A stretch of 64,000 nt of DNA, taken from positions 62,001-126,000 of the forward strand of contig CABYPW010000001.1 of the NCBI GenBank assembly GCA_902520885.1, written 5' to 3'. A model generated the notes under the pieces. The model had not been told where the DNA came from and searched no databases. It saw nothing but the letters and a program-made list of their open reading frames with translations. The stretch is from an uncultured SAR116 cluster alpha proteobacterium (lineage in GTDB: Bacteria; Pseudomonadota; Alphaproteobacteria; Puniceispirillales; Puniceispirillaceae). Positions within the stretch are counted from its first letter, which is position 1. Every line of letters starts with the position of its first letter. The position numbers were made by a program, and so were the translations under genes. This document shows, one piece after another, positions 727-53,778 of this stretch.

Positions 727-1030
727 TGGTATTTTCTCAGTCTATCACATGAATATCAAAATTAAGGAACTGATTACTAAGAATGAAAACAACAATAATG
801 CTAAAACCTATAAACATATTTTTTCTGATCATAGTTTGTCTTAATTTTAGTTTAGAGATAAAAACCAATAACATAATACCTAGTAAAAACATACGAAATT
901 ACTTATTTAAATTTTTATTTTCTAAAGCTTGAGGATTTTTATAATATACTCTATTGGTGGAATTTTTATTACACTGTAGACACATTTAAATCTTTCAGAT
1001 AATCCTTAAATAAAAATTTTGGTGCCTCCA
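727..1030. other. AT-rich intergenic region between divergent genes
   Basis: These 304 bases separate the starts of the ABC exporter gene (minus) and the GT10 gene (plus), so promoters for both must lie here. The stretch is extremely AT-rich. I see no coding frame, RNA gene, strong hairpin or repeat in it. Confidence 0.6.
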
Positions 1031-2068
1031 ATGTATAAAGTGAGCTTGGTTACTTCCCCCTATTATTATAGAAATCGAATTTTTAACATTGAAGATCCTA
1101 TATCGAACAGGGATAATCATCTTTATGTTTATTGGCTTTTAAAAAAAGAACTGCAAAACAGGGGAATAGTAATTGCAACAAGCGATATTCATAAACCACA
1201 AGACTCCGATGTGGTTATATACATGGATATCCTGAAGCATTTGCCCAAGAAAAATGAATTTCACAAGAGCATATTAATTATTAACGAAGTAGCCGTCGTA
1301 AAACCTGCTAATTGGCAGATAAAAAATCATAAATATTTTTCAAAAATATTCACATTTTGTGACGACATAATAGATAACAAAAAATACTTCAAGCTAAATT
1401 CATGCCGTTCTTTTAATAAAAATGTCCCGATAAATATTACTAAAAAAACTAAATTTTGTACAATGATTTCAGGGAATAAGTCTTCGAAACATCCCCTTGA
1501 ATTATATTCCAAAAGACTGGAGGCTGTAAATTGGTTTGCTTCCCAACACCCAGATGATTTTGATTTTTATGGCTTAGGATGGGACAAAAAAAATTTTACT
1601 GGGATATCACGCCCTTTGAATAGAATTCCTTTTGTAAGAAAATTTTTCGCTGAAAAATATCCTACCTGGAAAGGCCCAATCCGCAATAAATACGAAACTT
1701 TATCAAAATATAAGTTTTCAATTTCTTTCGAAAATGCAAGGGGAATAAATGGATACGTAACAGGAGATAAAATCTTTGACCCAATGGAAGCTGGATGCAT
1801 ACCAATTTATTGGGGTGCACCAAATATTGAAAAATATGTTCCCAAAAACTGTTTTATTAGTATGGAGGATTTTAAAAATTGGGAGGATTTATATTTTTAC
1901 ATTAAAAACATGCCACAACTAGAATATTTAAGCTATTTAGATAACATAAAATATTATATAGAAAATGTTGCTAGAACTGGCCCCTACAGCGAACATGGTT
2001 TTCTAAATGCAATCTTACCTATTATTGAAAATATAATTCTCATTAGCAATGCCGCTGGGCTGGAATAA
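1031..2068 (+). CDS. GT10 (alpha-1,3-fucosyltransferase-like) glycosyltransferase
   Basis: A 345-residue protein if it starts at ATG 1031; TTG 1019 and GTG 1022 are in-frame alternatives. The C-terminal half holds the family 10 signature around residues 241-265, including KIFDPMEAGCIPIYWGAPN, the donor-binding region of bacterial and animal fucosyltransferases. The N-terminal half is weakly conserved, as usual for the acceptor-binding domain. It would transfer fucose (or a related sugar) from a GDP-sugar onto a surface glycan in the cytoplasm. No GDP-fucose synthesis genes (gmd, fcl) are in the window, so the donor is not proven. It opens a plus-strand glycan gene run. Confidence 0.85.
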   Translation: MYKVSLVTSPYYYRNRIFNIEDPISNRDNHLYVYWLLKKELQNRGIVIATSDIHKPQDSDVVIYMDILKHLPKKNEFHKSILIINEVAVVKPANWQIKNHKYFSKIFTFCDDIIDNKKYFKLNSCRSFNKNVPINITKKTKFCTMISGNKSSKHPLELYSKRLEAVNWFASQHPDDFDFYGLGWDKKNFTGISRPLNRIPFVRKFFAEKYPTWKGPIRNKYETLSKYKFSISFENARGINGYVTGDKIFDPMEAGCIPIYWGAPNIEKYVPKNCFISMEDFKNWEDLYFYIKNMPQLEYLSYLDNIKYYIENVARTGPYSEHGFLNAILPIIENIILISNAAGLE

Positions 2069-2211
2069 CATTTACTATTTTTTTACTATTAAATCCGATA
2101 TGATTCGCTACGATATGTGTTAAATGATCTGTTTCATTTATTGAAGACAACAAAATTCAAAATGCATTTAAAATATTAAATTTATAGTCATAAAATCCTA
2201 AAGTGTAAATT

Positions 2212-3288
2212 ATGCATGATATTCGAATAGAACAAGACTTACAACACACAGCAACCAATTGCTACAGAGAGTTAAAACAAATCACAGGTCAAAAAACGCT
2301 TTTAACCGGTTGTGGAGGATTTTTAGGATTTTTCATGTCAAATCTTTTTGCTTATTGGAATAATAACCACAATGAGAAAATCATTTGTACACTGCAAGAT
2401 AATTTCATGAGAGGAACTCCAAAATGGATAGATGGATTTCATTCAGATCACATTAAATTTGAATTACATGATGTTTTAAGCAATTATGATAGATTCGACT
2501 TTCATAATATCATACATGCAGCATCAGTAGCATCCCCTACATTTTACAGAAAATTCCCAATTGAAACGATGGATGCCAACGTTATTGGTTTGAGAAACTT
2601 ACTAGAAAATCAGCTTTTGTTCCAAAATAAAAAAAGAAATTTACATACTAGATTTCTATTTTTTTCCTCAAGCGAAATTTATGGGGATCCTGTACCTGAA
2701 TTCATACCTACAAAGGAAACCTATTGGGGTAATGTTTCGTGCACTGGCCCCAGGGCGTGTTATGATGAATCAAAAAGATATGGTGAAACATTATGTTATA
2801 ATTTCGCCAACGTTAAAAATATGCATATTGTAATTGCTAGGCCATTCAATAACTATGGCCCTGGATTAAAATTGGATGATGGTAGGGTAATATCAGATTT
2901 TGCAAAATCAATAAAAAGAAATAAGACTATTCAAATTTTCTCCGATGGAGGACCCACCAGAACCTTTTGCTATATATCTGATGCAATAGCTGGTTACATT
3001 AAAATATTAGTAAATGGTAAAGCTGGCGAAAGCTACAACATAGGAACCGATAAACCTGAGATTTCAATGCTAGAGTTAGCCAAAATGATGAAAAACATGG
3101 TTGAAGACATGACAACTGTAAAAGTGTCAATTAAAAAGGAAATAAGCAAAGATAAAGAATATCTTACCCATAACCCAAATAGACGTTGTCCAGACATTAC
3201 AAAAGCTAAATTAAATTTAAATTATTCTCCCAGTGTAAGCCTTGAGGAGGGTCTTAAAAAAACGCTTGAATGGTATGGGGTATTCTAG
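2212..3288 (+). CDS. NAD-dependent sugar epimerase/dehydratase, UDP-glucuronate decarboxylase-like
   Basis: A 358-residue extended short-chain dehydrogenase. The nucleotide-binding loop TGCGGFLG is at residues 32-39, after a roughly 30-residue leader, and the catalytic pair is Y184 and K188 within GPRACYDESKRYGET. That block and the SSSEIYGDP strand resemble UDP-xylose synthase (UXS) more than dTDP-glucose dehydratases. The UDP-glucose dehydrogenase gene starts 2 bases downstream, so the pair could make UDP-xylose from UDP-glucose via UDP-glucuronate. Exact substrate is inferred; 4-epimerases and dehydratases share the fold. Confidence 0.82.
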   Translation: MHDIRIEQDLQHTATNCYRELKQITGQKTLLTGCGGFLGFFMSNLFAYWNNNHNEKIICTLQDNFMRGTPKWIDGFHSDHIKFELHDVLSNYDRFDFHNIIHAASVASPTFYRKFPIETMDANVIGLRNLLENQLLFQNKKRNLHTRFLFFSSSEIYGDPVPEFIPTKETYWGNVSCTGPRACYDESKRYGETLCYNFANVKNMHIVIARPFNNYGPGLKLDDGRVISDFAKSIKRNKTIQIFSDGGPTRTFCYISDAIAGYIKILVNGKAGESYNIGTDKPEISMLELAKMMKNMVEDMTTVKVSIKKEISKDKEYLTHNPNRRCPDITKAKLNLNYSPSVSLEEGLKKTLEWYGVF

Positions 3289-3289
3289 A

Positions 3290-4624
3290 ATGAATATTTG
3301 TGTCATAGGAGCTGGCTTTGTAGGCCTAGTATCTAGCGTTTTTTTTGCTGAAATGGGTCATAACGTTATTTGCATTGATAAGGACGAAACTAAAATCAAT
3401 AAGATTAACCATAGGAATCCTCCTTTTTTTGAAAAGGACCTAGAAAAAAAATTAAGGTCAACATTAAAAAAGAATTTTGAAGCTAGCACAAATTTAGAAT
3501 ATGCCGTAAAAAATTCTAAATACATTTTTATTTGTGTTGGGACCCCATCACAAGATGATGGTAGTATTGATTTATCATATTTAGAAAATGTCTCTGACGC
3601 ATTGGGGGCAATCCTTCAAAGACTGGAAAAGCCAAGAACAATAATAATAAAAAGTACAGTTGTTCCTGGCACAACCAGGAAAGTATTTATTAATAGAATC
3701 GAAAATAAATATAACCTAAAGAACGGTAAAGATTATTTTGTTTCTATGAACCCAGAATTTTTGAGAGAGGGAAGTGCTGTATCTGATATGTACAACCCGG
3801 ACAGGATTATTGTAGGTGCCGATGAAGATACAACTCAGGAGAACGTATTAGCACTTTATTCAAAAATCTCAGAAATAAAAAAAATCAGAACTAGCATTGA
3901 AACTGCTGAAATATCTAAATATTGCTCTAATTTATTCTATGCAACACTTATTTCATTTTCGAATGAAATAGCATCAATTTGCCAAAATATTGAAAATACG
4001 GAAATTGAAAAAGTTTTTCGAAGTTTATATTTAGACAGGAGACTTTTAATTAATGAAAAAGAGAAATCTGCAGAAAATATAGGCGCAACAAGCTATATTT
4101 GGCCAGGAATTGGTTTTGGCGGAAGCTGTTTTCCGAAAGACCTTAAAGCGTTAATCAATTTTAGTGAAAATAATGATGTTAAAGTTCCAATACTAAAGAG
4201 CGTTGAACTTACGAATAATTTACAATCCGAATTATTGATAAGTAAATTTATAGAAAAATTTAAACCAAAAGTATTGGGCATCCTGGGTTTAAGTTTTAAA
4301 CCTGATACAGATGATATTAGAGAGTCAAAAAGTATTGAAATCATCAATGTGGTCAAGAGGCAAAACTTAAAACTTCTTGTTTTTGACCCATTGGTTAAAA
4401 ATATACCTAACCTAAACGAAAATTATTTTCAGAATAGTGCCCTTGATGTAATTCAACAATGTGATGCATTAGTTATTGCCACAAATTGGAGTGAATTCAA
4501 AAAGGTAGAGATATTTGAAGCGATAAACAAAAAAAAATGTCCTCTTTTAGATTGCAGGCTCTCCATGATTGACTACAAAAATGATTTATTAGGGGAATAT
4601 TTTGGGCCTGGTATACCATTTTAA
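3290..4624 (+). CDS. UDP-glucose/GDP-mannose 6-dehydrogenase family protein
   Basis: The start at ATG 3290 lies directly before the NAD loop GAGFVG (residues 7-12) and 2 bases after the previous stop, which fits translational coupling; 444 residues is the normal family length. The catalytic cysteine is C280 in GFGGSCFPKD, and NPEFLREGSA is the central substrate-binding motif. It oxidises a nucleotide hexose at C6 in two NAD-dependent steps, most likely UDP-glucose to UDP-glucuronate, given the UXS-like neighbour. A GDP-mannose dehydrogenase role is less likely but not excluded. Confidence 0.92.
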   Translation: MNICVIGAGFVGLVSSVFFAEMGHNVICIDKDETKINKINHRNPPFFEKDLEKKLRSTLKKNFEASTNLEYAVKNSKYIFICVGTPSQDDGSIDLSYLENVSDALGAILQRLEKPRTIIIKSTVVPGTTRKVFINRIENKYNLKNGKDYFVSMNPEFLREGSAVSDMYNPDRIIVGADEDTTQENVLALYSKISEIKKIRTSIETAEISKYCSNLFYATLISFSNEIASICQNIENTEIEKVFRSLYLDRRLLINEKEKSAENIGATSYIWPGIGFGGSCFPKDLKALINFSENNDVKVPILKSVELTNNLQSELLISKFIEKFKPKVLGILGLSFKPDTDDIRESKSIEIINVVKRQNLKLLVFDPLVKNIPNLNENYFQNSALDVIQQCDALVIATNWSEFKKVEIFEAINKKKCPLLDCRLSMIDYKNDLLGEYFGPGIPF

Positions 4625-4657
4625 ACAAGACTTAAAAAACTTTGACGGAAATCAAAA

Positions 4658-5854
4658 ATGGGCAAATTAACACACTGTGAAGTATGCAAAAATACGCTGC
4701 CAAATCCCCAATTAAATTTAGGTGCTCACCCACTTTGTGATGATTTAATACCCATTGGACAAAAAGTTGAGTGCAAGCTCTATAATATTGAAGTTTCTCT
4801 TTGTCCAAACTGCCTGACAGCAAATCAAATATTTTCAGTGAAAAAGGAATTGTTGTTTCCATCTACCTATCATTATCGGGCACGATTTACCAAAGATGTA
4901 ATCGAAGGAATGAAGGAACTTACAAAACACGTTATTGATATTACTGGTCCATCAAAAAATGGAGACTATATTCTAGATGTAGGTTGTAATGACGGAAGTT
5001 TATTAAATAATTTTTACGAACTAGGTTTTATTACCGCGGGAGTAGAACCTACTGATGCAGCTGATGATGTTGATTTGGACAAACACAAAGTTTACAAATC
5101 TTACTTCGATATGAATTTGTCAAAAAAAATTTATAACGAACTTGGTGCCCCTAAAATAATCACCTTCACTAATGTATTTGCTCACATTGATGACCTGCAG
5201 CAGCTAATTAAATCTCTTAATTATTTAAGTGATGAGAACACTCTGATTGTAATAGAAAATCACTATTTAGGGGCAGTTTTATCTAAAGACCAATTTGATA
5301 CTTTTTATCACGAACACCCAAGAACCTATAGCTCTATGTCCTTCGATTTTATTTCTAAATTACTAAATAAAGAGATTATTTCGAGAGTTTTCCCAGCTAG
5401 ATACGGTGGTAATATTAGGGTTTGTATTGGTAATCCGACCACTTACAACTTTAGTTATAAGATGGAGAGTTTTAATGAGTCAAACTTCTTAGATGACTTT
5501 AAACTAATTGAAGATAATATTAAAACTTGGGTAGAAATTAAAGCCAAAGAAATTAAAGAACTAGTATCAATATATGGGAAATTACCAGCAAAGGCATTTC
5601 CGGCAAGAGGTGCGATTTTGATTAAGTTATTAAATTTAGATGAGAATTTAATATCTGCTGTTTATGAGCGAAGCGGTTCTAAAAAGATTGGGCATTATGT
5701 TCCGGGAACAAGAATTGAAATTAAAGACGAAAATGAATTATTTCAGCAAAACACTGATGCACCCATATTAAACATAGCTTGGCATATAAAAGAGGAAATT
5801 CACAAATACTTGCTAAAGAATGCCAATATTAAAAATATAATAGACATAAAATAG
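4658..5854 (+). CDS. SAM-dependent sugar C-methyltransferase, zinc-binding type
   Basis: A 398-residue protein with the three-part layout of deoxysugar C-methyltransferases (TylC3/NovU type). An N-terminal zinc module has paired cysteines C7/C10 and C49/C52. A Rossmann methyltransferase domain has ILDVGCNDGS at 105-114, and the C-terminal domain carries the GGNIRVCIG strand. It would methylate a ketosugar nucleotide at carbon. It lies 33 bases after the UDP-sugar dehydrogenase and its stop overlaps the next start by one base, so it belongs to the same transcript. The specific sugar cannot be read from the sequence. Confidence 0.87.
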   Translation: MGKLTHCEVCKNTLPNPQLNLGAHPLCDDLIPIGQKVECKLYNIEVSLCPNCLTANQIFSVKKELLFPSTYHYRARFTKDVIEGMKELTKHVIDITGPSKNGDYILDVGCNDGSLLNNFYELGFITAGVEPTDAADDVDLDKHKVYKSYFDMNLSKKIYNELGAPKIITFTNVFAHIDDLQQLIKSLNYLSDENTLIVIENHYLGAVLSKDQFDTFYHEHPRTYSSMSFDFISKLLNKEIISRVFPARYGGNIRVCIGNPTTYNFSYKMESFNESNFLDDFKLIEDNIKTWVEIKAKEIKELVSIYGKLPAKAFPARGAILIKLLNLDENLISAVYERSGSKKIGHYVPGTRIEIKDENELFQQNTDAPILNIAWHIKEEIHKYLLKNANIKNIIDIK

Positions 5855-6699
5855 TGGTTAGTTTTGGAATAATCGGAAGTGGATTTGGCCTGTATGGATA
5901 CCTTCCAGCGATTTTATCAACTAATAAACGACAAGTTTATATATTAAAAAGATATAAAGAGATATTAAAAAATAGGAAAGAATTAAACTTTTATGAGTCA
6001 AAAGTAAAATACCTGGATAATGAGCAAGAAATCTTAAAAAATAGTGATATAATTATATTAGCAAGAAGGCCAATTGATAATGAAAAATTATTTTTTCAAA
6101 TAGAGAATAAAAAAGTAATCATCGAAAAACCTATAGCAAAATCTCCAAATGAAGCGTTCAGAATTCTTCTACACGGAAATTCAAATAATATCAAAATCTA
6201 TAGTGGGTTTTTATTTGAATACCAAAATTGGTATGAAAAAATAACAAACATAACAAACGGAACTGTTAATATTAGATGGGGAATAAAAAAAGTTAATACT
6301 CCTGATAGTTGGAAATATGCTCCTAAAAATGGGGGTGGTCTCACAGCCTTCTATGCAATACACCTAATAAATTTGGCTACACAAAATGATTTTCAATTAA
6401 ATAATAGTAAATTGTTAAATTTAAATAATTTGTCACTTAATTTTAACAAAAAAGGAGTCAATTTAAAGTGCAACCTATATTTTTCAAACAGTCCAATATT
6501 TTCAATATGTTTAGAAGATAAGCACATTATATTGCAATCTGGCAGTCCGTTTGGAGAGAGAAGCAATAATAATGAAAGAGATTTTAGGGTAAATTCTCTA
6601 GAACAGCTTATTAAAAATGTTATAAGCAAAGAACCTTTTCAAAAAATTTTTGAGACTATAGAACTATGGGATGAAGTTGAGAGGAATATATTGAAATGA
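5854..6699 (+). CDS. Gfo/Idh/MocA family oxidoreductase
   Basis: A 281-residue protein starting at GTG 5854, whose first base is the last base of the preceding stop. The N-terminal Rossmann loop GIIGSGFGLYG is at residues 5-15, and the family's E-K-P motif is E91-K92-P93. The protein is shorter than the usual 320-350 residues, mainly in the C-terminal sheet domain. It probably reduces or oxidises a keto group on a nucleotide sugar and fits a pathway that needs the neighbouring C-methyltransferase. The stop overlaps the next start by four bases (ATGA). Confidence 0.8.
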   Translation: MVSFGIIGSGFGLYGYLPAILSTNKRQVYILKRYKEILKNRKELNFYESKVKYLDNEQEILKNSDIIILARRPIDNEKLFFQIENKKVIIEKPIAKSPNEAFRILLHGNSNNIKIYSGFLFEYQNWYEKITNITNGTVNIRWGIKKVNTPDSWKYAPKNGGGLTAFYAIHLINLATQNDFQLNNSKLLNLNNLSLNFNKKGVNLKCNLYFSNSPIFSICLEDKHIILQSGSPFGERSNNNERDFRVNSLEQLIKNVISKEPFQKIFETIELWDEVERNILK

Positions 6700-7475
6700 A
6701 ATTATTAATTTTTGCAGGTGGATACGGTTCCAGGCTAGCTGAATTTACGTCAAATACCCCAAAGCCCCTAGTTCAAATCGGAGGCAAACCCATAATTTGG
6801 CATATAATGAAATATTACAGTACCTTTGGTGTAAATGAATTCGTACTGCTTGTTGGTTATAAAGCTTTAGATTTTGTTGAATATTTTAAAACTTTTAATA
6901 GTGATAATTTTGATATTGAGATACAAACTAATAGCCAAGAAATGAGAGTCCACAGAAAAAATATTGATAATTGGAGCATTCGAATTATAGATACTGGTTT
7001 AGATACCATGACAGGATCTAGACTTTATAGAGCAAAACATACTGTAGAAAATTATGATAACTTTTTTCTTACATATGGGGATGGTTTATCCAACATTGAC
7101 CTCGGTGAGCTCTCTAATCATCACCAATCAAGCGATAATTGCGTTACACTCTCAGCTGTTTCGCCTCCTGGACGATTTGGGGTAATAGAAATGGATAATG
7201 AAAATAATAAGGTCACTAATTTAATTGAAAAACCAAATGGAGATGGTGCACTCATAAACGGCGGATTTTTTGTAGTATCATCAGAAATATTTAATGAACA
7301 GTTCGACGAAGTTTCTACTGTTTGGGAGACTGATATTTTAGAAAATCTAAGTGCTAAAAATAAATTAGGTTTATTTAAGCACACAGATTTTTGGCAATCA
7401 ATGGATACTCTTAGAGAAAAACAAAAGCTAGAATATTTATGGAAACAAAAAGAGTGTCCATGGAGAATATGGTAA
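6696..7475 (+). CDS. Sugar-1-phosphate nucleotidyltransferase, glucose-1-phosphate cytidylyltransferase-like
   Basis: A 259-residue protein with the nucleotidyltransferase loop AGGYGSRL at residues 7-14, then KPLVQIGGKPIIWHIMKYY, the run typical of RfbF. It ends with the RfbF-like tail CPWRIW. RfbF makes CDP-glucose from CTP and glucose-1-phosphate, the entry to CDP-3,6-dideoxyhexoses. The expected partner, CDP-glucose 4,6-dehydratase (RfbG), is not in the window, so the product may feed another branch formed with the C-methyltransferase and Gfo/Idh enzymes just upstream. Start ATG 6696 overlaps the previous stop by four bases. Confidence 0.85.
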   Translation: MKLLIFAGGYGSRLAEFTSNTPKPLVQIGGKPIIWHIMKYYSTFGVNEFVLLVGYKALDFVEYFKTFNSDNFDIEIQTNSQEMRVHRKNIDNWSIRIIDTGLDTMTGSRLYRAKHTVENYDNFFLTYGDGLSNIDLGELSNHHQSSDNCVTLSAVSPPGRFGVIEMDNENNKVTNLIEKPNGDGALINGGFFVVSSEIFNEQFDEVSTVWETDILENLSAKNKLGLFKHTDFWQSMDTLREKQKLEYLWKQKECPWRIW

Positions 7476-8353
7476 ACGAAAAAAGTATAAGCTTAATGCT
7501 TCCAATTTTTAATTGTATTCATACAATTGATGCAACTATAGAAAGTATTTTGTCACAAAATTTTAAAGAATTTACCTTACATATTCTAGATAATAAAAGT
7601 ACTGATGGGACATTCGAGAGATGTAAAGTTTATGCAAACCTTGAAGAAAGAATTAAATTAGAACGAAATTATAGAAATATTGGATGGGGATTAAATTTCA
7701 ACAAAGCAATCAAAAATATGAATGGAAAATATGGTTGTATTATTCATGGAGATGACATTTATGGAGTTAACTTTCTGAGAGATAACATTGAAATAGCCAA
7801 AAAATACCCCAATGCTCTAATTTTTACTAAAGGGAAAACATTTAAAAATAACCCCCCACTTAAAAATTCTTCATCGAAAATGTTTTCCCAAGTAATCGCA
7901 AAAGAAAAGCAAGATTTCCTACAAAGACTGCTAGAAAAAGGAAATACATATTTTTGTCCAACGGCGTTCATGAGTGTAAATCACTGGCAGGGTTTAATTC
8001 GTCAATTTAATTTTAGAGAATTTGGTGGAGGTTGCGATCTTGATGCATGGCTAAGAGCTTCAGAAAATCTTCAAATAGTAGAAATAAAAGGAAGTGCAAA
8101 TTTTTTTTACAGACTTAGTAGCAAACAAATTTCCTACTTTGATAAAACAAATAATTCAAAAAGTGTTTTTGTTAAAGTTTTGGAATATCATTTATCAAAA
8201 TCAAAAAAACATTTGCTAGCAATACACCAATTAAACCATCTTGCAAGCTCAAAACTCTCTATCTCAGACAAATTTTATTTTTTATTAAAAATATTTAGAG
8301 CCAAGGGTAACTATTGGCTAAAAATTAAGACCCTACTAAAACTGATTATTTAG
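7469..8353 (+). CDS. GT2 family glycosyltransferase
   Basis: The start is placed at ATG 7469, overlapping the previous stop, which leaves a short leader before the GT-A core; ATG 7439 and 7460 are in-frame alternatives. The 294-residue protein begins SISLMLPIFN, has the LDNKSTDGT donor-binding strand near residue 45 and the metal-binding HGDDIYG with D95/D96. It would transfer a sugar from a nucleotide donor at the inner face of the membrane. It closes the plus-strand glycan run. Its C-terminal third is lysine-rich and unrecognised. Confidence 0.87.
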   Translation: MVNEKSISLMLPIFNCIHTIDATIESILSQNFKEFTLHILDNKSTDGTFERCKVYANLEERIKLERNYRNIGWGLNFNKAIKNMNGKYGCIIHGDDIYGVNFLRDNIEIAKKYPNALIFTKGKTFKNNPPLKNSSSKMFSQVIAKEKQDFLQRLLEKGNTYFCPTAFMSVNHWQGLIRQFNFREFGGGCDLDAWLRASENLQIVEIKGSANFFYRLSSKQISYFDKTNNSKSVFVKVLEYHLSKSKKHLLAIHQLNHLASSKLSISDKFYFLLKIFRAKGNYWLKIKTLLKLII

Positions 8354-40327: not shown

Positions 40328-41134
40328 ATGAATTTCATCGCTTACATTATTTTATTGATTTTAACACCAACGGGTTTACTAGCCTCAGAAAAATCCATAT
40401 TAGTTCAATCAACAACTTCCACCAAAAATTCTGGCCTCTATGATTTTATACTTCCACTTTTTACGGCAGACTCGGGGATAAAGGTTAACGTAGTTGCTGT
40501 TGGAACAGGTGCGGCAATAAAAAATGCTCGCAATTGTGACGGTGACGTTCTTCTTGTGCATAGTCCAGAAGATGAACAAAAATTTATTGCAGATGGTTTC
40601 TCTACAAAACGCCATAATATTATGCATAATGACTTTGTTATAGTTGGTCCAGTTGAAGATCCAGCTGGTATTATTGGAATGCAAGATGTTGGCTTGGCAT
40701 TCGCTCAAATAGCCACTTCAGGTGCAAAATTTGCCTCAAGAAGCGATGGCTCTGGCACGCACACCAAGGAGCTTTCAATATGGAGGAAAATAGATTTAGA
40801 TCCAGTAAATGAGTCAGGTAGTTGGTATCTTGAGACCGGCTCTGGTATGGGAAAAACACTAAATATTACGATTGGTACTAATGCTTATACGCTTGTTGAT
40901 AGAGCTAGCTGGTACTCCTTTTATAACAAATATGATCATCGCATTTTGCTCGAGGGGGATAGCCATTTATTCAATCCTTATGGCGTTATGCTTATCGATA
41001 AAAATAAATGCCCAACTGTAAAATCTGCAGAGGGTCAATCGTTCATCAACTGGCTTACTTCATATAAAGGACAAAAAGCAATAGGAATGTTCAACATAGA
41101 CGGACAACAAGTTTTTATTCCAACCTCAAAATAA
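40328..41134 (+). CDS. Tungstate/molybdate-type ABC substrate-binding protein (TupA-like)
   Basis: A 268-residue periplasmic protein with a signal peptide (cleavage near residue 19, ...GLLA-S). The mature start QSTTSTKNSGLYDFILPLF, VVAVGTGAAIKNARNCDGDVLLVHSPEDE and the later FASRSDGSGTHTKE are TupA features, including the T-T-S oxyanion loop. TupA delivers tungstate to TupBC, but no permease or ATPase gene is adjacent: a tRNA and an oligosaccharyltransferase gene follow. ATG 40328 is chosen; ATG 40324 is out of frame. Confidence 0.87.
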   Translation: MNFIAYIILLILTPTGLLASEKSILVQSTTSTKNSGLYDFILPLFTADSGIKVNVVAVGTGAAIKNARNCDGDVLLVHSPEDEQKFIADGFSTKRHNIMHNDFVIVGPVEDPAGIIGMQDVGLAFAQIATSGAKFASRSDGSGTHTKELSIWRKIDLDPVNESGSWYLETGSGMGKTLNITIGTNAYTLVDRASWYSFYNKYDHRILLEGDSHLFNPYGVMLIDKNKCPTVKSAEGQSFINWLTSYKGQKAIGMFNIDGQQVFIPTSK

Positions 41135-41347: not shown

Positions 41348-43450
41348 CTAATTAGATACAGGCATTAATTTGAATATTTTAACATCAGGGTAACCATCAT
41401 AAACTAATTTAAAAATTTTAGGATCAAATCTTCCCAAATGAAACATCTGATTATAACTACTAAAAAATAAATCTCTATGGAGAATAGCTACTCTAGTTGA
41501 TTTCCTATCTCTATCTCTCATAATTTGAAACATATTTAATTGATTCTGCTGGAAACGCTTACTCCCAATAAGCTGTCCTCCTTGTGCTTCAGCTACTAAA
41601 TTTAGCACTGAATTTCCGTCTATCTTTCCTTCGTTGAGATTGATAACTGAGTTATTACACTTAATAATTCCTAGTATTTCCGTATCTGCACAATTTAGAA
41701 AACTATACCCTAATCGCTGCCCAGGCCCATGACCCCTTGCGATAATAGGAATGCCCAAGTCTATGTCCCACCTTCCAATCTTTGAGATGGATGGCATCCA
41801 GTCAGTCATTTGGTTTGTTAGCATAAGGTACACAACTGGAGAAGGATTGTTTCTCTCCGCAATCATTATTTTTGTTAGAGCAGTTCTATTTTCAACCTTT
41901 TCTCCCAGACTAGACATACCGCCACGTGCCAGAAAACGTAATGTATCTGCAGTATACACCTGATTATTAGATAAAAGAGCATCTGCTATAAAATAATTTG
42001 TATTTCTACCATGATACCCAGGGTCTGTAAATGTAGGTAGTCCATTCATTAACATGGAAGCATATCCATAATCCCACCAGCTTGCCAAGACACTGTTGTC
42101 TTTATCTGCTAAGGATGTAATTTCTGCCATAGCTTTCATAATGGGAACAGGAATTGAAGGTTTAGCTAACTTATTGACAGGTCCGTTAAACCAAACAAAA
42201 ATCAGCAATGCAGCACAGACTATCGCAGAAGCTGATATACTTATAATTTGTTTAAACTTTTCGAGTTTAAACGAAAAAAAGTGAATAGTTAATCTTGTAA
42301 TCAACACTGCTAAAAAAGCACCACCAAACCAAAAAAATGGTGCAGAATAAAACAAAGCTCTATTTCCAATTATTGCTGAAAACATTGCAAAGCCGGCAAG
42401 TGGTGCATATGCTATTGCCAATATTGGATGTTTGGCAGCCCAAATTAAAACACCAGTTATACAAATTATACTGACATAAACAGAGCCAGTCATTCTAATT
42501 AACTTTTCGCTGAGGGGAAATTTTGATGCTTCAGTGACCGTGGAAATAACATTACTAAAGATAAAATTGTCATGTGTTATTTCTTTTTGTATATAAATTG
42601 AATTAAATGGATTTATTATTTCCACACCTGAGATAAAAAAGAAAAGAAGTGTAAAACCAACAATACGACGCCAGTCACGAACTATTACAATAAGTAGCCA
42701 GCACAAAGCTATGGTAGCCATTAAAATAAGTTCTGATTTTCCATACCAACTCATAAATAGGTGAGCTGTTAATCCTGCCACAATAGTAAAGAATACTCCT
42801 AACTTAACATCTCTTGTCTTGCCAGCATATAAAATCATAGCAAACATAAAATACATCATTCCTAGGTTTAGCTGGTCCGTATCTATTCTGCCGATAGCTG
42901 ACCGCCAATAATATGCTATAGATAAACCACCTCCGGCTGCTGCAACCGAACCCTCCATCCAATATCCTGTTGCGCCGAATGCTATAAAAATTGCTACGGC
43001 GGTAATGGCAGCAGTGTAGGGGAGCATTTTATTACCCACTGTTAACAATTCTTTTGGAGATGCGTCTTTAGAAAAATAGGCTATCAACTTTGATAATAAC
43101 GGAGCAGATTGTTCAGAGGAATCTATTGATTGTGCCCTTGTTTGATTTATTGGGAATGCACGGAGCGCCTGATATTCATCCATTGTTTTTCCAGATTTAA
43201 GATAACCAGCTATACCTAAAAAATAACCTGCATCCATTGTTGTAAATAGTGGTGTATCCTCAAAAAAGAATTCTTCTTTATTTTGTTCCCATAATTGCCA
43301 ATTAATTTGCCTGGCCTGAAAATTCATATATGTGGCTATGATGCCTAGAATAATTGCGAAAGTCACAGTCAACGAAGTAGCTTTTTGAGTAAATAGGTCA
43401 TTTTGGAACAATTTTTCATGCCACTTAACAATCGTAGATATAAACGACAT
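41348..43450 (-). CDS. STT3/PglB-type oligosaccharyltransferase
   Basis: A 700-residue membrane enzyme with about a dozen hydrophobic segments and a C-terminal soluble domain. The metal-binding aspartate is D73 in TTMDAGYFLG, a second acidic loop is GRIDTDQLN, and the sequon-binding WWDYG is at 458-462. The last 40 residues (SSYNQMFHLGRFDP...VKIFKLMP) align by eye with the end of Campylobacter PglB. Such enzymes move a lipid-linked glycan to asparagine in the periplasm. The MxxI motif that contacts the sequon appears as MTDWMPSI (548-555), with tryptophan for isoleucine. Nearby GT4 and EamA genes may be partners. Confidence 0.9.
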   Translation of the reverse strand: MSFISTIVKWHEKLFQNDLFTQKATSLTVTFAIILGIIATYMNFQARQINWQLWEQNKEEFFFEDTPLFTTMDAGYFLGIAGYLKSGKTMDEYQALRAFPINQTRAQSIDSSEQSAPLLSKLIAYFSKDASPKELLTVGNKMLPYTAAITAVAIFIAFGATGYWMEGSVAAAGGGLSIAYYWRSAIGRIDTDQLNLGMMYFMFAMILYAGKTRDVKLGVFFTIVAGLTAHLFMSWYGKSELILMATIALCWLLIVIVRDWRRIVGFTLLFFFISGVEIINPFNSIYIQKEITHDNFIFSNVISTVTEASKFPLSEKLIRMTGSVYVSIICITGVLIWAAKHPILAIAYAPLAGFAMFSAIIGNRALFYSAPFFWFGGAFLAVLITRLTIHFFSFKLEKFKQIISISASAIVCAALLIFVWFNGPVNKLAKPSIPVPIMKAMAEITSLADKDNSVLASWWDYGYASMLMNGLPTFTDPGYHGRNTNYFIADALLSNNQVYTADTLRFLARGGMSSLGEKVENRTALTKIMIAERNNPSPVVYLMLTNQMTDWMPSISKIGRWDIDLGIPIIARGHGPGQRLGYSFLNCADTEILGIIKCNNSVINLNEGKIDGNSVLNLVAEAQGGQLIGSKRFQQNQLNMFQIMRDRDRKSTRVAILHRDLFFSSYNQMFHLGRFDPKIFKLVYDGYPDVKIFKLMPVSN

Positions 43451-43617
43451 AGATACTCCTGTTTATTACGTTTGCTTAAAATTCTTAGCCAAGTTATAAG
43501 TCAACATTATCTCATTAACAACAAGAGAGAAATATCTCATAAATTGACGAATTTTTACCTAGTCAAATATTGTTAATCATATTATTATTAAATATGATGA
43601 TCCATAGAGACAAAAAT

Positions 43618-44205
43618 ATGACAAAACAGGAACAAATATTTGAAAATTTAAAATCTTTAAGAAAAATTGCCTCAGTTGAAGCTTTGGTTTCGGATTCAAC
43701 AAACATAAACCAAGATCAATACAAAAAACAATACAATGATTTGTTGTCCCAAACGAAAACCTTAGATGATTTTGAAATAAACATAGCGGTAACAAACCAA
43801 ATTAATAAGCTCAAGTTACACCTTAAGGATGCTGAAATCGCTTTATTAAAAGAAAAAATAAAGGGTAAAAGCGTAATAATTTCCGAATTTGAACAAACGG
43901 AGCCAACAAAAGTAAATACCTTATTAAGTGATATTAGATTAGCTATAGCGAATGCAAAAGAAGATATATCGAAAAATGATTCAAAGAAAATAAAAACTTT
44001 CTCTGCACCTCAGAATAATGAGAGGGTTAATTCTGAATTTGAGTTATCATCTGAAACAAAACAATTTATCGAACTTTTATTGAACCAAGTTGTATCGCAA
44101 AATTTAGATAATGTTATAAAAGATATAATAGGGCATAAAATAGAGAAAAAAAATAAAGTTCTTGATCTAAGTGAAGTGGCAGTAAGTCCCAAAAATGATA
44201 CATAA
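43618..44205 (+). CDS. Unrecognised charged helical protein
   Basis: The start is put at ATG 43618; a TTG at 43570 in frame adds 16 hydrophobic-leaning residues without a convincing signal. The 195-residue product is rich in Lys, Glu, Asp, Asn and Ser, with no membrane segment or cysteine, and looks helical or coiled coil at about residues 1-90 and 145-185 around a flexible middle. It is divergent from the oligosaccharyltransferase gene and 54 bases before an EamA permease gene. I do not recognise the family. Confidence 0.6.
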   Translation: MTKQEQIFENLKSLRKIASVEALVSDSTNINQDQYKKQYNDLLSQTKTLDDFEINIAVTNQINKLKLHLKDAEIALLKEKIKGKSVIISEFEQTEPTKVNTLLSDIRLAIANAKEDISKNDSKKIKTFSAPQNNERVNSEFELSSETKQFIELLLNQVVSQNLDNVIKDIIGHKIEKKNKVLDLSEVAVSPKNDT

Positions 44206-44259: not shown

Positions 44260-45165
44260 ATGGAATTATGGGCCGTCATAGCAATAATCGCAGCAATTGC
44301 CCAATCGTTGCGAACTGTTTGTCAGAAATTATTAATCCCTCATGTAGGTGAGTTGGGTGCAAGTTTTAGCCGCTTCATCTACAGTATTACCTTTACTTGG
44401 CTCTGGGTCTTAACAATTTGTTTAATGACTGGCAATAGTTTACCAAATATATCCTTTTTATTTATTGCTTTTGTTGGCCTAGCTGGAATTCTTCAAATAG
44501 TATTTACGATTTTGTTAATCATGATGTTCAATCATCGTAACTACGCCATTGGTATTGCTCTTTCAAAAACAGAAATTCTTCAAACTGCTATATTAGAAGC
44601 TATAATAATTGGGTATGTAGCAAGCTTTTCGATTATAGGAGCGATTTCAATGGGACTCATTGGTATTGCTCTTTTAAGCTACCAAAAAGTTGAGTTTAAA
44701 AATGGTGTTAAAAGTCATTTATTCTTTTCTCCCCCACATTTCTTGGGCATCGGCGCTGGAACAGCTCTTGCTTTAGCTAATATTTTTTATTTTAAAGCAA
44801 CAATACTTTTAAATAGTGATTTACTCGTTATTAATGCTAGTTTTACAGCGGCGATATCAATTTCACTGCAAACAATCATTCTTGGAAGCTACCTTGTTTT
44901 TAAGGAACCAGATCAATTAATGCTTTGCCTCGTAAATTGGAAAATTGGTTTTTTTATCGGCATTACTGCTGTTATTTCCTCTACAGCATGGTTTTACGCA
45001 TTTGCAATGTTTCACCTTGGGGCAGTGCGTGCAGTAGGACAAATTGAGTTGATTATATCGATTTTGTTTTCGTGGCTTTTTTTAAAAGAAAAAATCACTC
45101 TTCTTGAGTTAATTGGTATTAGCATACTTGGTATTTCCATTGTTATTGTGCTGTTATATGCTTAA
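44260..45165 (+). CDS. EamA/DMT family permease
   Basis: A 301-residue protein with ten hydrophobic segments in two repeats of five, the EamA arrangement; the second repeat ends with GQIELIISILFSWLFLKEKI, the family's closing pattern. Members export metabolites or, in some glycan clusters, move lipid-linked aminosugars. Placed between an oligosaccharyltransferase neighbour and a GT4 gene (18-base gap), a role in glycan precursor transport is possible but unproven. Confidence 0.87.
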   Translation: MELWAVIAIIAAIAQSLRTVCQKLLIPHVGELGASFSRFIYSITFTWLWVLTICLMTGNSLPNISFLFIAFVGLAGILQIVFTILLIMMFNHRNYAIGIALSKTEILQTAILEAIIIGYVASFSIIGAISMGLIGIALLSYQKVEFKNGVKSHLFFSPPHFLGIGAGTALALANIFYFKATILLNSDLLVINASFTAAISISLQTIILGSYLVFKEPDQLMLCLVNWKIGFFIGITAVISSTAWFYAFAMFHLGAVRAVGQIELIISILFSWLFLKEKITLLELIGISILGISIVIVLLYA

Positions 45166-45183: not shown

Positions 45184-46194
45184 ATGAAAATTCTTCATGT
45201 TACAAGTGATAACAAGCCAGGTGGAATTCAAAAAGCCTTTAAAAACTATGTTGCCGCTCTAGCACCCCTTTCTGAATTTGAAAATTTTTACTTTACCCCT
45301 AATTATTTATATACGAACAACGATAGCGATAATGCAAATTATATAAAATTGTCATGGCTTCAAAAAACTCTTCTCCGAAGGAACTTATTGTTTTCGGTCA
45401 ATAATTTTCATAATCAATTATTTAATATTTCTTTTGTTCATAATGGCTTCATGTGCAGAGGTATAAAAAAATACAGTGATAATGTTATCGGTATTTGTCA
45501 CAACGACAAACCAGAGCAGTTTGATTATGCAGATAATTTAATTTGTCTTACACCAAATGCGGTTCAAAAAGCTAAAGAAATTGGTAGATGTGAAAATAGT
45601 ATTCATCTGTTATCTCATTATTTTGAACCTCAAAAAAAAATTCCTCATAGCGCTAGGATCGGTCAAAAGCTTACCATAGGAGCTGCAGGAAGATTTGTTG
45701 AAAAAAAAGGCTTCAAAACATTCATTGATGCTGCCGCAAGAGTTCGCAAAGAATTCCCCGAAGTTGAATTTGTACTCGCTGGTGATGGGCCTTTATCAAA
45801 TAGTCTCCTGGCATTCTCAAAAAGCAAAGGCAATCCAGTCCGATTTACAGGTTGGATTAACATTACAGAATTTGCTCCCTCTTTAGATATTTTCTGCCTT
45901 CCCTCTCTTGATGAACCATTTGGCTATATACTACCTGAAATTATGCAATATGGTGTTGCCATTGTAGCAACACGTACAAATGGCCCTTTATGGATTTGTC
46001 AAAGTATTGAAGATGCACTTTTTTTTGAACCATCTAATAGTGACGAGATGGTGGACCGTCTGAAAATACTTATACAAAACCCGAAGGAAAGGAAAAAATA
46101 TCAGCAAAGAGCCAAACAAGCTGTGTATAATGAACGATTTTCAAAAGAAATTTTTACGGAAAATTTGCTGAAAATCATTAAATTAGTTAATTAG
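45184..46194 (+). CDS. GT4 family glycosyltransferase
   Basis: A 336-residue GT-B enzyme. The N-terminal domain starts MKILHVTSDNKPGGIQKAF, and the C-terminal domain has GAAGRFVEKKGFKTFIDAA, the FVLAGDGPL strand and the donor-binding LDEPFGYILPEIMQYG (E-x7-E). It would use a nucleotide sugar at the cytoplasmic face. It converges on the lrp gene with a 14-base gap and is probably transcribed with the EamA gene. Confidence 0.92.
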   Translation: MKILHVTSDNKPGGIQKAFKNYVAALAPLSEFENFYFTPNYLYTNNDSDNANYIKLSWLQKTLLRRNLLFSVNNFHNQLFNISFVHNGFMCRGIKKYSDNVIGICHNDKPEQFDYADNLICLTPNAVQKAKEIGRCENSIHLLSHYFEPQKKIPHSARIGQKLTIGAAGRFVEKKGFKTFIDAAARVRKEFPEVEFVLAGDGPLSNSLLAFSKSKGNPVRFTGWINITEFAPSLDIFCLPSLDEPFGYILPEIMQYGVAIVATRTNGPLWICQSIEDALFFEPSNSDEMVDRLKILIQNPKERKKYQQRAKQAVYNERFSKEIFTENLLKIIKLVN

Positions 46195-46667: not shown

Positions 46668-46834
46668 TATTCAGCCTCCAAATTTTTTTCTGAAAATTTA
46701 TAATTTTGATTATAGGAAATAAATCGTTTTATTCACCTTAAATTTTATCCAAATAAAGTTAAAAACTTTCATAAATATTTAGGTTGTAACTTACCTTTTT
46801 GTTCGTCACACTGCTGATTATGTTTATGCCAGAA

Positions 46835-47743
46835 ATGAATAACTCAGAACATCTTCATCCCACAGGATGGAAAGATTACCAATTGATCGACTCAGGTAAT
46901 GGAGAGAAATTAGAGCAGTTTGGCCCCTATCGCTTTGTTAGGCCAGAGGCACAGGCATTATGGTTACCAAGACTACAAAAAGCAGAATGGCAATCAGCTG
47001 ATGGCCATTTTATTGCATCAGAAAGAGGTGGCAAATGGAAATTAAAAGATTCAATTCCAGAAAACTGGCATATGCATTTCGAAGATATCCGTTTTTTTGC
47101 TATGCCAACATCATTTAGGCACTTAGGGTTTTTTCCAGAACAATCCGTACATTGGCAATGGTGTGCTGACAAAATCAAAAAGTTTAAAGAAATTCATGCT
47201 CGTGCCCCAAGAATACTTAATCTATTTGCATATTCTGGGATTGGAAGCCTACATGCCGCACGCGCAGGGGCAGAAGTCACTCACATCGACGCAAGCAGAA
47301 AAGCAATTCAGCTTGCCTTTAATAATAGAGAATTGAGCAATTTAAATGATGCTCCGATTCGTTTTATTACTGAGGATGCTATTCAATTCGTTCAACGTGA
47401 AATTAGACGCGGTAAATCATATGACGGGATTATACTCGACCCACCAAAATATGGCAGAGGTCCAAAAGGAGAAGTTTGGCAACTACAAAAAAATCTCCCG
47501 GATCTTTTATCCGACTGCACAAGCTTAATTTCTAATTCACCCTTATTTTTAGTTGCCACTATTTATGCGGTAAGAATGTCTATAATATCTGTGCATTCGG
47601 CAATAGCAAATAGTTTTTCCACTAAATTAGGACAGATAACATCCGGAGAGATTTTTATTAAAGAAGAAGACACAGTTTCAAATGTCAAACCTAGAGCTTT
47701 AGGACAAGCACTATATGCGAGATGGAATGGTCTACAGAAATAA
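46835..47743 (+). CDS. Class I SAM-dependent RNA methyltransferase (RlmI-like)
   Basis: The start is uncertain: ATG at 46820, 46826 and 46835 are all in frame, and 46835 gives 302 residues starting MNNSEHLHPTGW. The SAM-binding strand is ILNLFAYSGIGSLHAARAGAEV, with IDASRKAIQLA, and the catalytic NPPY-like motif is LDPPKYGRGPKGE. It belongs with COG1092 rRNA methyltransferases but lacks the N-terminal PUA domain of RlmI. Target base is unknown. Confidence 0.88.
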   Translation: MNNSEHLHPTGWKDYQLIDSGNGEKLEQFGPYRFVRPEAQALWLPRLQKAEWQSADGHFIASERGGKWKLKDSIPENWHMHFEDIRFFAMPTSFRHLGFFPEQSVHWQWCADKIKKFKEIHARAPRILNLFAYSGIGSLHAARAGAEVTHIDASRKAIQLAFNNRELSNLNDAPIRFITEDAIQFVQREIRRGKSYDGIILDPPKYGRGPKGEVWQLQKNLPDLLSDCTSLISNSPLFLVATIYAVRMSIISVHSAIANSFSTKLGQITSGEIFIKEEDTVSNVKPRALGQALYARWNGLQK

Positions 47744-52284: not shown

Positions 52285-53778
52285 ATGGTTAATCGGTTTC
52301 AAAATAATTTAATGCAAAGAAGAAGTGTTCCTTCATCTTATGATTGGACAAATGCGGACATACTCACATTAATTGCTTTAATCTGCTTACTTATCGTTCG
52401 CCTTTTTGCCATTTTTATAACTCCACTGGAACTCGGCGTGGATGAAGCTCAATATTGGGTTTGGAGTCAGGACTTATCGTTAGGATATTATTCAAAACCA
52501 CCATTAATAGCTTGGATTATATGGGCTACCCACGCAGTTATAGGACATAGCAGTTTTGGCGTTAGAATATTTGCACCAATAATACATTTTTTAATCACAC
52601 TAATTTTATGGAAATGCGCGTGTCGATTATATGGTGACTCTTCTAGGGCTCCAAGAATTGGAAGAATAACAGCATTATTATGGGCACTTATGCCAGCTGT
52701 CAGTCTAGGTAGCTCAGTCATGTCGACGGATACACCAATGTTATTATTTTGGTGCTTAGCATTATACTTAATTATACCCTCAAATTCTGTGACATATCTA
52801 TCTGCACGAAATTATCTGCTCACTGGTTTCATCATAGGCTTCGCTCTACTTTCCAAATATGCAGCTGGATACTTCCTTATTTGCGCAGGTTTGTGGTTAA
52901 TGTCAGCTCATGTATCGTCGTATTCAAAACGATTTTTGTGTTTTGTAACATTAACTATTGGTAGTATTATTATCCTATTTCCTAATCTTGTCTGGAATTT
53001 TAATAATGGCTTAGTGACAATTATACATTTGTCTGAGAATGCTAATATAAATGAACCATCTTATTCTTTCATTGAATTGAAAAAATTCTGGGAAGCACAA
53101 TTCTTTGTATTCGGTCCTCTCAGTTTAATTTTCTTTTTTGCAGGAATATTTAAATGGGAAAAACATAGCTTATTTTTGCTTTGTTTCAGTGTCCCTATTC
53201 TATTAATTATATCTATTCAAGCCTATATTAAAGAAGCAAATGCTAATTGGGCTGTTGCCGCCTATCCCGCTGCAACTTTGCTGGTAGCTGGCTGGCTTGG
53301 TAATTTTTCGAAACAAACATTGAGCGCAACAACTATTTTTGTTAACTCTGTTATATCCATTACAGTAATTAGCGTAGTAATTACTGGTCATTTAGGACAA
53401 CTTACACCTGAATCTGACCCATTGAGGCGGGTTAGAGGATGGCATGCACTATCAGTAGACCTTGGCATGCAAATCGATTTAAACAAAGCAAGAACAATTA
53501 TCGCTGATAGAAGGGCAACTGCTGCTATTTTAAAGTGGTACTTTTTTAATGAACCAGTAAGTATTACAGTCTATGATGAAGATAAAAAACCCAGTAACCA
53601 TTTTGAACTTAAATCTAGCTATAATAGCGAATTCCCCTCACCAATTATTACAATAACTACGGAGCAAATTGAGCCATCAATAGCTGGCATTAAATGGAAT
53701 GGTTTGATAGGAACCTCTAATCATCAAATTGCTAGAGATAAATATAGAAATTACTATTTCTATCTGGGAAGAAATTAA
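52285..53778 (+). CDS. GT39 (ArnT/PMT-like) membrane glycosyltransferase
   Basis: A 497-residue protein with about eleven hydrophobic segments and the GT39 catalytic loop ELGVDEAQYWVWSQDLSLGYYSKPPL near residues 50-75, where the acidic D-E pair sits. A C-terminal soluble part begins near residue 385. Such enzymes move a sugar from a polyprenyl phosphate donor to lipid A, another glycan or protein in the periplasm. A 194-base region upstream follows sufE divergently. The acceptor is unknown. Confidence 0.9.
   Translation: MVNRFQNNLMQRRSVPSSYDWTNADILTLIALICLLIVRLFAIFITPLELGVDEAQYWVWSQDLSLGYYSKPPLIAWIIWATHAVIGHSSFGVRIFAPIIHFLITLILWKCACRLYGDSSRAPRIGRITALLWALMPAVSLGSSVMSTDTPMLLFWCLALYLIIPSNSVTYLSARNYLLTGFIIGFALLSKYAAGYFLICAGLWLMSAHVSSYSKRFLCFVTLTIGSIIILFPNLVWNFNNGLVTIIHLSENANINEPSYSFIELKKFWEAQFFVFGPLSLIFFFAGIFKWEKHSLFLLCFSVPILLIISIQAYIKEANANWAVAAYPAATLLVAGWLGNFSKQTLSATTIFVNSVISITVISVVITGHLGQLTPESDPLRRVRGWHALSVDLGMQIDLNKARTIIADRRATAAILKWYFFNEPVSITVYDEDKKPSNHFELKSSYNSEFPSPIITITTEQIEPSIAGIKWNGLIGTSNHQIARDKYRNYYFYLGRN

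Follow-up and report, generated by a model that had tools for sequence, protein, structure and literature searches.

A candidate STT3/PglB-type oligosaccharyltransferase gene in SAR116 alphaproteobacteria

Introduction

N-glycosylation, the attachment of sugar chains to asparagine in exported proteins, has been described in bacteria chiefly from Campylobacter and related organisms. Passages of two papers place bacterial oligosaccharyltransferases (OSTs) in the delta- and epsilonproteobacteria and the Aquificae (PMC4973528, PMC4894442), and the second of these (Ollis 2015) names epsilonproteobacteria, some deltaproteobacteria, and Aquificae. A CAZyme table in part of another paper lists one GT66 enzyme for Aquidulcibacter, an alphaproteobacterium of the Caulobacteraceae (PMC5712168), and so SAR116 is perhaps not the sole alphaproteobacterial case. 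For marine plankton, PMC11573768 describes the GT66 enzymes of its Arctic samples as confined to Archaea, which speaks against detectable SAR116 GT66 in that Arctic plankton. For SAR11 and Prochlorococcus, the oligosaccharyltransferases suggested in PMC8931226 are of the O-linked and not of the N-linked kind. In the titles and abstracts of the open-licence literature, we found no paper describing an oligosaccharyltransferase, STT3 or PglB from SAR116 or from Alphaproteobacteria.

Here we describe a gene from a SAR116 cluster genome (G000; 2.17 Mb, 95% complete). It lies within a 64,000-nucleotide stretch of DNA, which is called the window below. The gene belongs to a known enzyme family, and it is found in a group for which the literature that we searched holds no discussion of such enzymes.

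Results

Gene and family membership. The gene is a single open frame of 700 codons on the minus strand of the window, beginning with an ATG at 43450 and ending at 41348. The original prediction, made from this DNA alone, had proposed a PglB/STT3-type enzyme for 41348-43450 without naming a strand, and the frame is real. Homologues of full length, with 64-73% identity, are encoded in five other genomes of the same genus, and comparing the window gene with each of these five gives a dN/dS of 0.09-0.18 (approximate, as dS is near or above 1). Together these observations argue that the frame did not arise by chance. Relatives encoded at four loci of named records have 68-73% identity.

The window protein matches the Pfam STT3-PglB_core family (PF21436) at 38.3 bits, over the curated cut-off of 23. 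Its match to the NCBIfam PglB equivalog NF050801 has an E-value of 1e-19 and a score of 70.5 bits, which is below the cut-off of 1300. We built an alignment (A1) of 24 rows, in which the window protein is joined by 23 SAR116 homologues that are 25-73% identical to it. These are 24 of 30 homologues, and the six partial ones were omitted (L007, L015, L019, L023, L029 and L030). Both PF21436 and the NCBIfam PglB model are matched by 24 of the 24 rows, the window protein included, at E-values up to 1. The Pfam STT3 N-terminal family (PF02516) is matched by ten of the 24 rows at the same threshold (best 7.4e-9), and the window protein on its own gives no match to it even at E 1.

A single-sequence search of solved structures recovered the C-terminal domain of Campylobacter jejuni PglB (3aag) in two pieces, residues 441-498 and 635-695, at E 2.7e-8. 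Up to E 1 this was the only convincing match, since the five others (0.2-0.63) are unrelated by name. With the 24-row profile, Campylobacter lari PglB (ClPglB; 3rce/5ogl) was matched along positions 149-700 of the profile with an E-value of 3.4e-42, and an extra N-terminal piece that holds D56 scores 7.4 bits, alone not significant. Hydrophobic stretches occur in the window protein up to residue 429, with none beyond. An AlphaFold2 model built from five sequences had a mean pLDDT of 33 and was unusable. On sequence evidence the window protein is a predicted membrane protein and belongs to the GT66 oligosaccharyltransferases (STT3/PglB/AglB), an identity that is well supported by the ClPglB profile match and by catalytic residues that are identical in all rows.

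Active-site and acceptor-pocket residues. Residue correspondence was taken from the ClPglB chain numbers in the A1 profile-structure alignment. ClPglB residues D56, R147, D154, D156, E319, R375 and W463-G467 are equivalent to window residues D73, R183, D190, D192, E307, R364 and 458-462. The gene and its main features are as follows.

41348..43450, minus strand: STT3/PglB-type oligosaccharyltransferase gene, 700 aa (Pfam, NCBIfam, structure and profile matches)
43232..43234, minus strand: codon for D73, equivalent to ClPglB D56 in the first external loop, metal/acceptor site (24/24 rows)
42875..42904, minus strand: R183...D190-T-D192, equivalent to ClPglB R147, D154 and D156 (24/24 rows)
42530..42532, minus strand: codon for E307 in a T-V-T-E loop, equivalent to ClPglB E319 (24/24 rows)
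42494..42496, minus strand: codon for R319, equivalent to ClPglB R331, which is linked to an acidic -2 preference (Arg in 8/24 rows)
42359..42361, minus strand: codon for R364, equivalent to ClPglB R375 (24/24 rows)
42065..42079, minus strand: WWDYG at 458-462, sequon-binding motif, equivalent to ClPglB 463-467 (24/24 rows)
41798..41809, minus strand: M548-x-x-W551 at the ClPglB M569-x-x-I572 motif (M548 in 23/24 rows, W551 in 24/24)

The WWDYG motif, which in characterised OSTs is the binding site for Ser/Thr at +2, and D73 are both present, as had been predicted. The catalytic acidic residues of the external loops EL1, EL2 and EL5, the donor-site arginine, and WWDYG are identical in every row of A1, and these catalytic invariants are unchanged when all 30 homologues are aligned. 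Cys 587 and Cys 598 are invariant in the SAR116 alignment too. A live GT66-type enzyme appears to be the best reading of the profile match, the residue conservation, and the dN/dS values.

At three other positions of the pocket, the SAR116 proteins depart from ClPglB in some or all rows. M569 is retained in 23 of 24 rows. The M569-x-x-I572 motif, which presumably touches the +2 residue as in PglB structures, carries Trp in place of Ile at the last position in all 24 rows, and this is by alignment a lineage-specific change in the acceptor-pocket motif. At the R331 position, Arg is found in all six rows of the window's genus and in L011 and L014, a count that depends on the alignment. In the part of PMC4894442 that bears on this residue, R331 is discussed for its role in the -2 preference, and Arg alone does not fix specificity.

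Distribution. When the window's own genome and 60 relatives are considered, the gene is present in 33 of 61 genomes and 14 of 17 genera. Across the order, Puniceispirillales, it occurs in 36 of 136 genomes and 15 of 20 genera, and every one of these 36 belongs to family f1, f2 or f3. This count is a lower bound, because many of the 136 genomes are incomplete. The order has 43 genomes with completeness of 90% or more and contamination of 5% or less, and 18 of them carry the gene. The core-domain family was detected in three of 386 sampled Alphaproteobacteria, and all three are SAR116 members from the window's own family. The search is sensitive for the SAR116 lineage because the domain is found in all 24 A1 rows. 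A SAR116 profile searched against 397 Pseudomonadota recovered, besides the window genome, three genomes that belong to other classes. No STT3 relative was found in a plasmid collection by tblastn, and 13 pattern matches among viral contigs included none that encodes one.

Within the window's genus, the gene is present in seven of ten genomes, and the other three are G005, G006 and G007. G005 retains only the first 30 residues of STT3, in a 31-residue frame, and G007, with no STT3 match, is 61% complete. In G006, the contig with a homologue of the flanking gene at 46799-47743 starts inside that gene, on the STT3 side, and the GT4 gene described below was likewise not found. True absence from G006 is for these reasons not upheld, as the region may fall in an assembly gap. 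Of the four single-contig SAR116 genomes in this analysis, two carry the gene (G015 and G037) and two lack it (G022 and G043).

Evolutionary history. A maximum-likelihood tree was computed from 34 rows, omitting L029 and L030 and adding L072, L080, L082 and three rows from other classes. It contains SAR116 rows and the three other-class Pseudomonadota, with no Campylobacterota or archaea, and its root is for drawing only. Families f3, f2 and f1 are each grouped, with support of 100/100, 100/99 and 99/99, respectively, and all SAR116 rows are split from the three other-class rows at 100/100. Two of the outgroup branches are long, and seven rows (including four of f3) have an odd residue make-up.

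In 12 genomes (five of f1, three of f2 and four of f3), the gene lies between a response regulator and ispE. The surrounding stretch comprises leuS, a porin gene, yggS, ribA, the regulator gene, ispE, and genes for a TPR protein and ETF-QO (names read from the sequences). One of the 12, G060, has two extra frames between the regulator and STT3. The rows in this ispE slot include L082, and in G037 (L022) STT3 is a few genes away from it. Four genomes (G000, G010, G025 and G012) keep the ispE stretch without STT3 and have the gene located elsewhere, and five others (G022, G030, G039, G040 and G043) keep the stretch and have no STT3 match. The remaining 18 f1 rows form one clade (100/98), and neither ispE nor the regulator gene is present in their examined flanks. 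Frames resembling TPR-sulfotransferases, as read from the sequence, occur near the STT3 slot (L046:3148-6840, L047, L048 of genus g8, and L049-L050), and they cluster between the porin gene and yggS in several SAR116 genomes.

The family-wise tree and the slot shared by 12 genomes of three families suggest that STT3 was probably ancestral to the SAR116 families that carry it, and was later moved and often lost. The simplest history would start from a single ancestral site common to the three families, followed by one relocation in part of f1 and by many losses. In G012, STT3 is present in two overlapping frames (contig C37:4659-6745; L015, L119), which could reflect a frameshift or an assembly error, and most listed genomes of its genus have no STT3 match. 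G010 has an intact STT3 and, elsewhere, a degraded STT3 fragment (L249:10856-11197, minus strand, contig C1). The split copy and the fragment would fit loss that is under way. The L249 fragment comes directly after a polysaccharide cluster that includes a gene of the PglC-type family PF02397 and a frame resembling WbpM/PglF, as judged by reading its sequence.

Genomic neighbourhood. In the window, the genes considered as neighbours of STT3 are as follows.

43570..44205, plus strand: divergent gene for a small protein of 211 aa that exceeds no Pfam cut-off (found next to STT3 only in genus g1)
44260..45165, plus strand: EamA-type transporter, genus-level neighbour (Pfam)
45184..46194, plus strand: GT4 glycosyltransferase, genus-level neighbour (Pfam)
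52285..53778, plus strand: PMT_2/ArnT-like GT-C enzyme, called GT39 in the original prediction (about 9 kb away, with no evidence of belonging)

The set of the 211-aa, EamA and GT4 genes accompanies STT3 in all six examined neighbourhoods from g1, the window's genus, and in none of 15 from other genera. At L042, from another genus, an EamA homologue alone is found some kilobases off. Every g1 neighbourhood that extends far enough carries the genes for the 211-aa protein, EamA, GT4 and TupA. The proximity of EamA, GT4 and GT39 genes had been offered as a sign that exported proteins are N-glycosylated. The genes are indeed there, but they make a weak argument because this context is genus-specific and 9 kb separate the PMT_2 gene from STT3. 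As strong evidence we rejected this neighbourhood, since it is constant only within the genus and GT4 is a common family.

A tungstate-binding TupA-like protein is encoded at 40328-41134 on the plus strand, adjoining STT3, and is conserved in the genus (NF041772, 203.8 bits, under the cut-off of 400). A run of surface-polysaccharide genes is also present in the window at 1019-8353 on the plus strand. It codes for GT10, an NAD-epimerase, a UDP-glucose/GDP-mannose dehydrogenase, a C-methyltransferase, a GFO/IDH oxidoreductase, a nucleotidyltransferase, and GT2. Neither the window genome nor the ispE slot has a glycan-assembly cluster beside STT3, and mainly core genes are found in both settings.

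Possible pathway partners. In other genera, the clearest candidate for a functional linkage of SAR116 STT3 is a co-directional run in G032 (L044:5242-10713) that is predicted to encode an epimerase, STT3, a WecA-like transferase, and a UDP-sugar dehydrogenase. The NAD-epimerase gene overlaps STT3 by 11 bases, and the WecA-like gene follows STT3 by 5 bases. A co-directional epimerase gene directly adjoins STT3 in four genomes of three genera (G011, G013, G019 and G032). An O-antigen-ligase-like (Wzy_C) gene is divergent beside STT3 in G010 and G036, and a homologous gene adjoins the WecA-like gene in G000, G009, G003 and G015.

The PglC-type family PF02397 has no match in G000 (95% complete), in G009, or in the STT3-less G043. 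One match was found in each of G010, G015, G025 and the STT3-less G022, and two in G037. Because G043 also lacks both STT3 and PF02397, absence of the latter is not special to the window's genus. G000 has two PF00953 genes, the second of which is nearer WecA than MraY (59.5 versus 32.6 bits). Of nine genomes compared, seven have STT3, and six of these carry a second PF00953 gene, as do neither of the two without STT3 (G022 and G043); the exception is G010, which has STT3 and a single PF00953 gene. The G037 copy shares just 20% identity with that of G000. This association is suggestive, with too few genomes to prove it. Of the Wzx-type flippase families, PF01943 has no match in G000 and PF13440 a single one that scores below cut-off.

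Sequons in exported proteins. We counted N-x-S/T sequons in proteins predicted to be exported by a crude signal-peptide rule, using sampled stretches of four genomes (n = 18, 27, 23 and 27 for G000, G015, G022 and G043). Observed-to-expected ratios are 0.91 (0.64-1.21) and 1.19 (0.96-1.49) for G000 and G015, which carry STT3, and 0.82 (0.56-1.10) and 1.08 (0.80-1.40) for G022 and G043, which do not. Sequons with an acidic -2 residue number 3-4 per genome versus 3.7-5.9 expected. The two genomes of each kind gave no signal of sequon excess in a comparison of low power. Given the small samples and the crude export rule, this test neither supports nor refutes N-glycosylation.

Discussion

Family membership, residue conservation, purifying selection, distribution, and synteny can all be read from the sequences. 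From them we infer the activity, donor, acceptor, partners and history of SAR116 STT3. The best explanation overall, which we regard as likely, is that the gene codes for a single-subunit N-oligosaccharyltransferase of family GT66 that uses a glycan begun by a WecA-like enzyme and that is ancestral to three families. The product would reside in the inner membrane, accept at the periplasmic face a glycan already assembled on a polyprenyl-diphosphate carrier, and then transfer it to the Asn of N-x-S/T sequons in exported proteins. Metal binding and placement of the acceptor would fall to D73, D190, D192 and E307, contact with the donor diphosphate to R364, and recognition of the +2 Ser/Thr to WWDYG. 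These are the roles that the corresponding residues have in PglB structures. In the window's genus, the carrier-linked sugar would probably be started by a WecA-like HexNAc-1-phosphate transferase, together with a nucleotide-sugar epimerase, rather than by PglC. An ancestor of three SAR116 families probably already had the enzyme, which would since have been lost on many occasions.

A different possibility is that the GT66 enzyme mainly hydrolyses lipid-linked glycans or uses a non-protein acceptor such as a surface polysaccharide or lipid. C. jejuni PglB, for example, has a side activity that yields free periplasmic oligosaccharides. Such a role would accord with the lack of sequon enrichment, with the Ile to Trp change at the acceptor pocket in 24/24 rows, and with the Wzy_C gene associated with STT3 in some genomes. 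However, an invariant WWDYG and conserved acceptor-side acidic residues are less likely to be needed for water or a lipid, and we consider this alternative unlikely.

The window's genus might instead have recently gained a PglB horizontally from Campylobacterota or Desulfobacterota, as the patchy presence of the gene (36/136 genomes) and the failure to find it in other sampled Alphaproteobacteria could suggest. This is very improbable given that the tree groups the rows by family with good support for each, that the ispE slot is common to 12 genomes of three families, and that the gene has the same G+C as the window (0.359). Acquisition may have occurred before the three families split. Least credible of all is that the gene is a decaying relic with no present function. 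It is missing from many genomes of the order, and the two-frame copy in G012 and the fragment in G010 would fit such decay, whereas the window gene has an intact 700-residue frame, retains its active-site residues, and shows a dN/dS of 0.09-0.18 across five species pairs in the genus.

Returning to the preferred explanation of an N-oligosaccharyltransferase, we also propose, tentatively and with slightly less than even confidence, a fuller picture in which N-glycosylation is an ancestral SAR116 trait that predates the three-family split. It would feature an acceptor pocket remodelled by the invariant Trp, a WecA-like initiated glycan shared with surface polysaccharide, and a sequon preference that varies among genera, of which some have Arg at the -2-reading position. 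If this is true, SAR116 N-glycoproteins would make up a widespread and unrecognised share of the protein and dissolved organic matter of the surface ocean, and would present a variable surface to phages. If the enzyme is active, en bloc protein N-glycosylation would extend to one group of marine alphaproteobacteria, beyond the delta, epsilon and Aquificae range, and SAR116 STT3 would provide a divergent single-subunit OST for glycoengineering. N-glycosylation would be testable by comparing strains such as G015 and G037 with strains such as G022 and G043, if these are cultured.

Comparison with known systems

Among described enzymes, archaeal AglB and eukaryotic STT3 belong to the same superfamily as SAR116 STT3. 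The A1 profile gives weak matches to eukaryotic proteins around WWDYG (STT3B, 6s7t, 6.2e-5; STT3, 6c26, 5.7e-4). No archaeal AglB chain is among the eight structure sequences matched by this profile at E up to 0.01, and none of the 24 SAR116 rows matches the archaeal NCBIfam model TIGR04154 at E up to 1. The SAR116 profile detects the three STT3-like proteins from other classes of Pseudomonadota (L084, L085 and L086) with E-values of 1e-21 to 1e-35. All three also match PF02516, and they carry WWDNG, WWDFG or WWDIG (read from the sequences) in place of the SAR116 WWDYG.

The Desulfovibrio enzymes DgPglB, DdPglB and DvPglB, as portrayed in part of PMC4894442, are divergent single-subunit bacterial OSTs like that of SAR116, with an Arg at the R331 position that varies among species, much as it is found in 8/24 SAR116 rows. 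They come from another phylum, and we liken them by description.

Unlike the Campylobacter pgl system, the SAR116 gene is found without a surrounding pgl locus, with partial linkage in other genera only, and a PglC-type transferase (PF02397) was not found in the window genome. C. lari PglB (3rce, 5ogl and 6gxc) resembles SAR116 STT3 by profile alignment across most of its length, and the two share D56, R147, D154, D156, E319, R375 and W463-G467, with M569 kept in 23/24 SAR116 rows. Even so, the window protein is very divergent from it (70.5 bits against a PglB cut-off of 1300) and SAR116 has Trp for I572. SAR116 STT3 belongs to this family, and its acceptor pocket and pathway are possibly variant.
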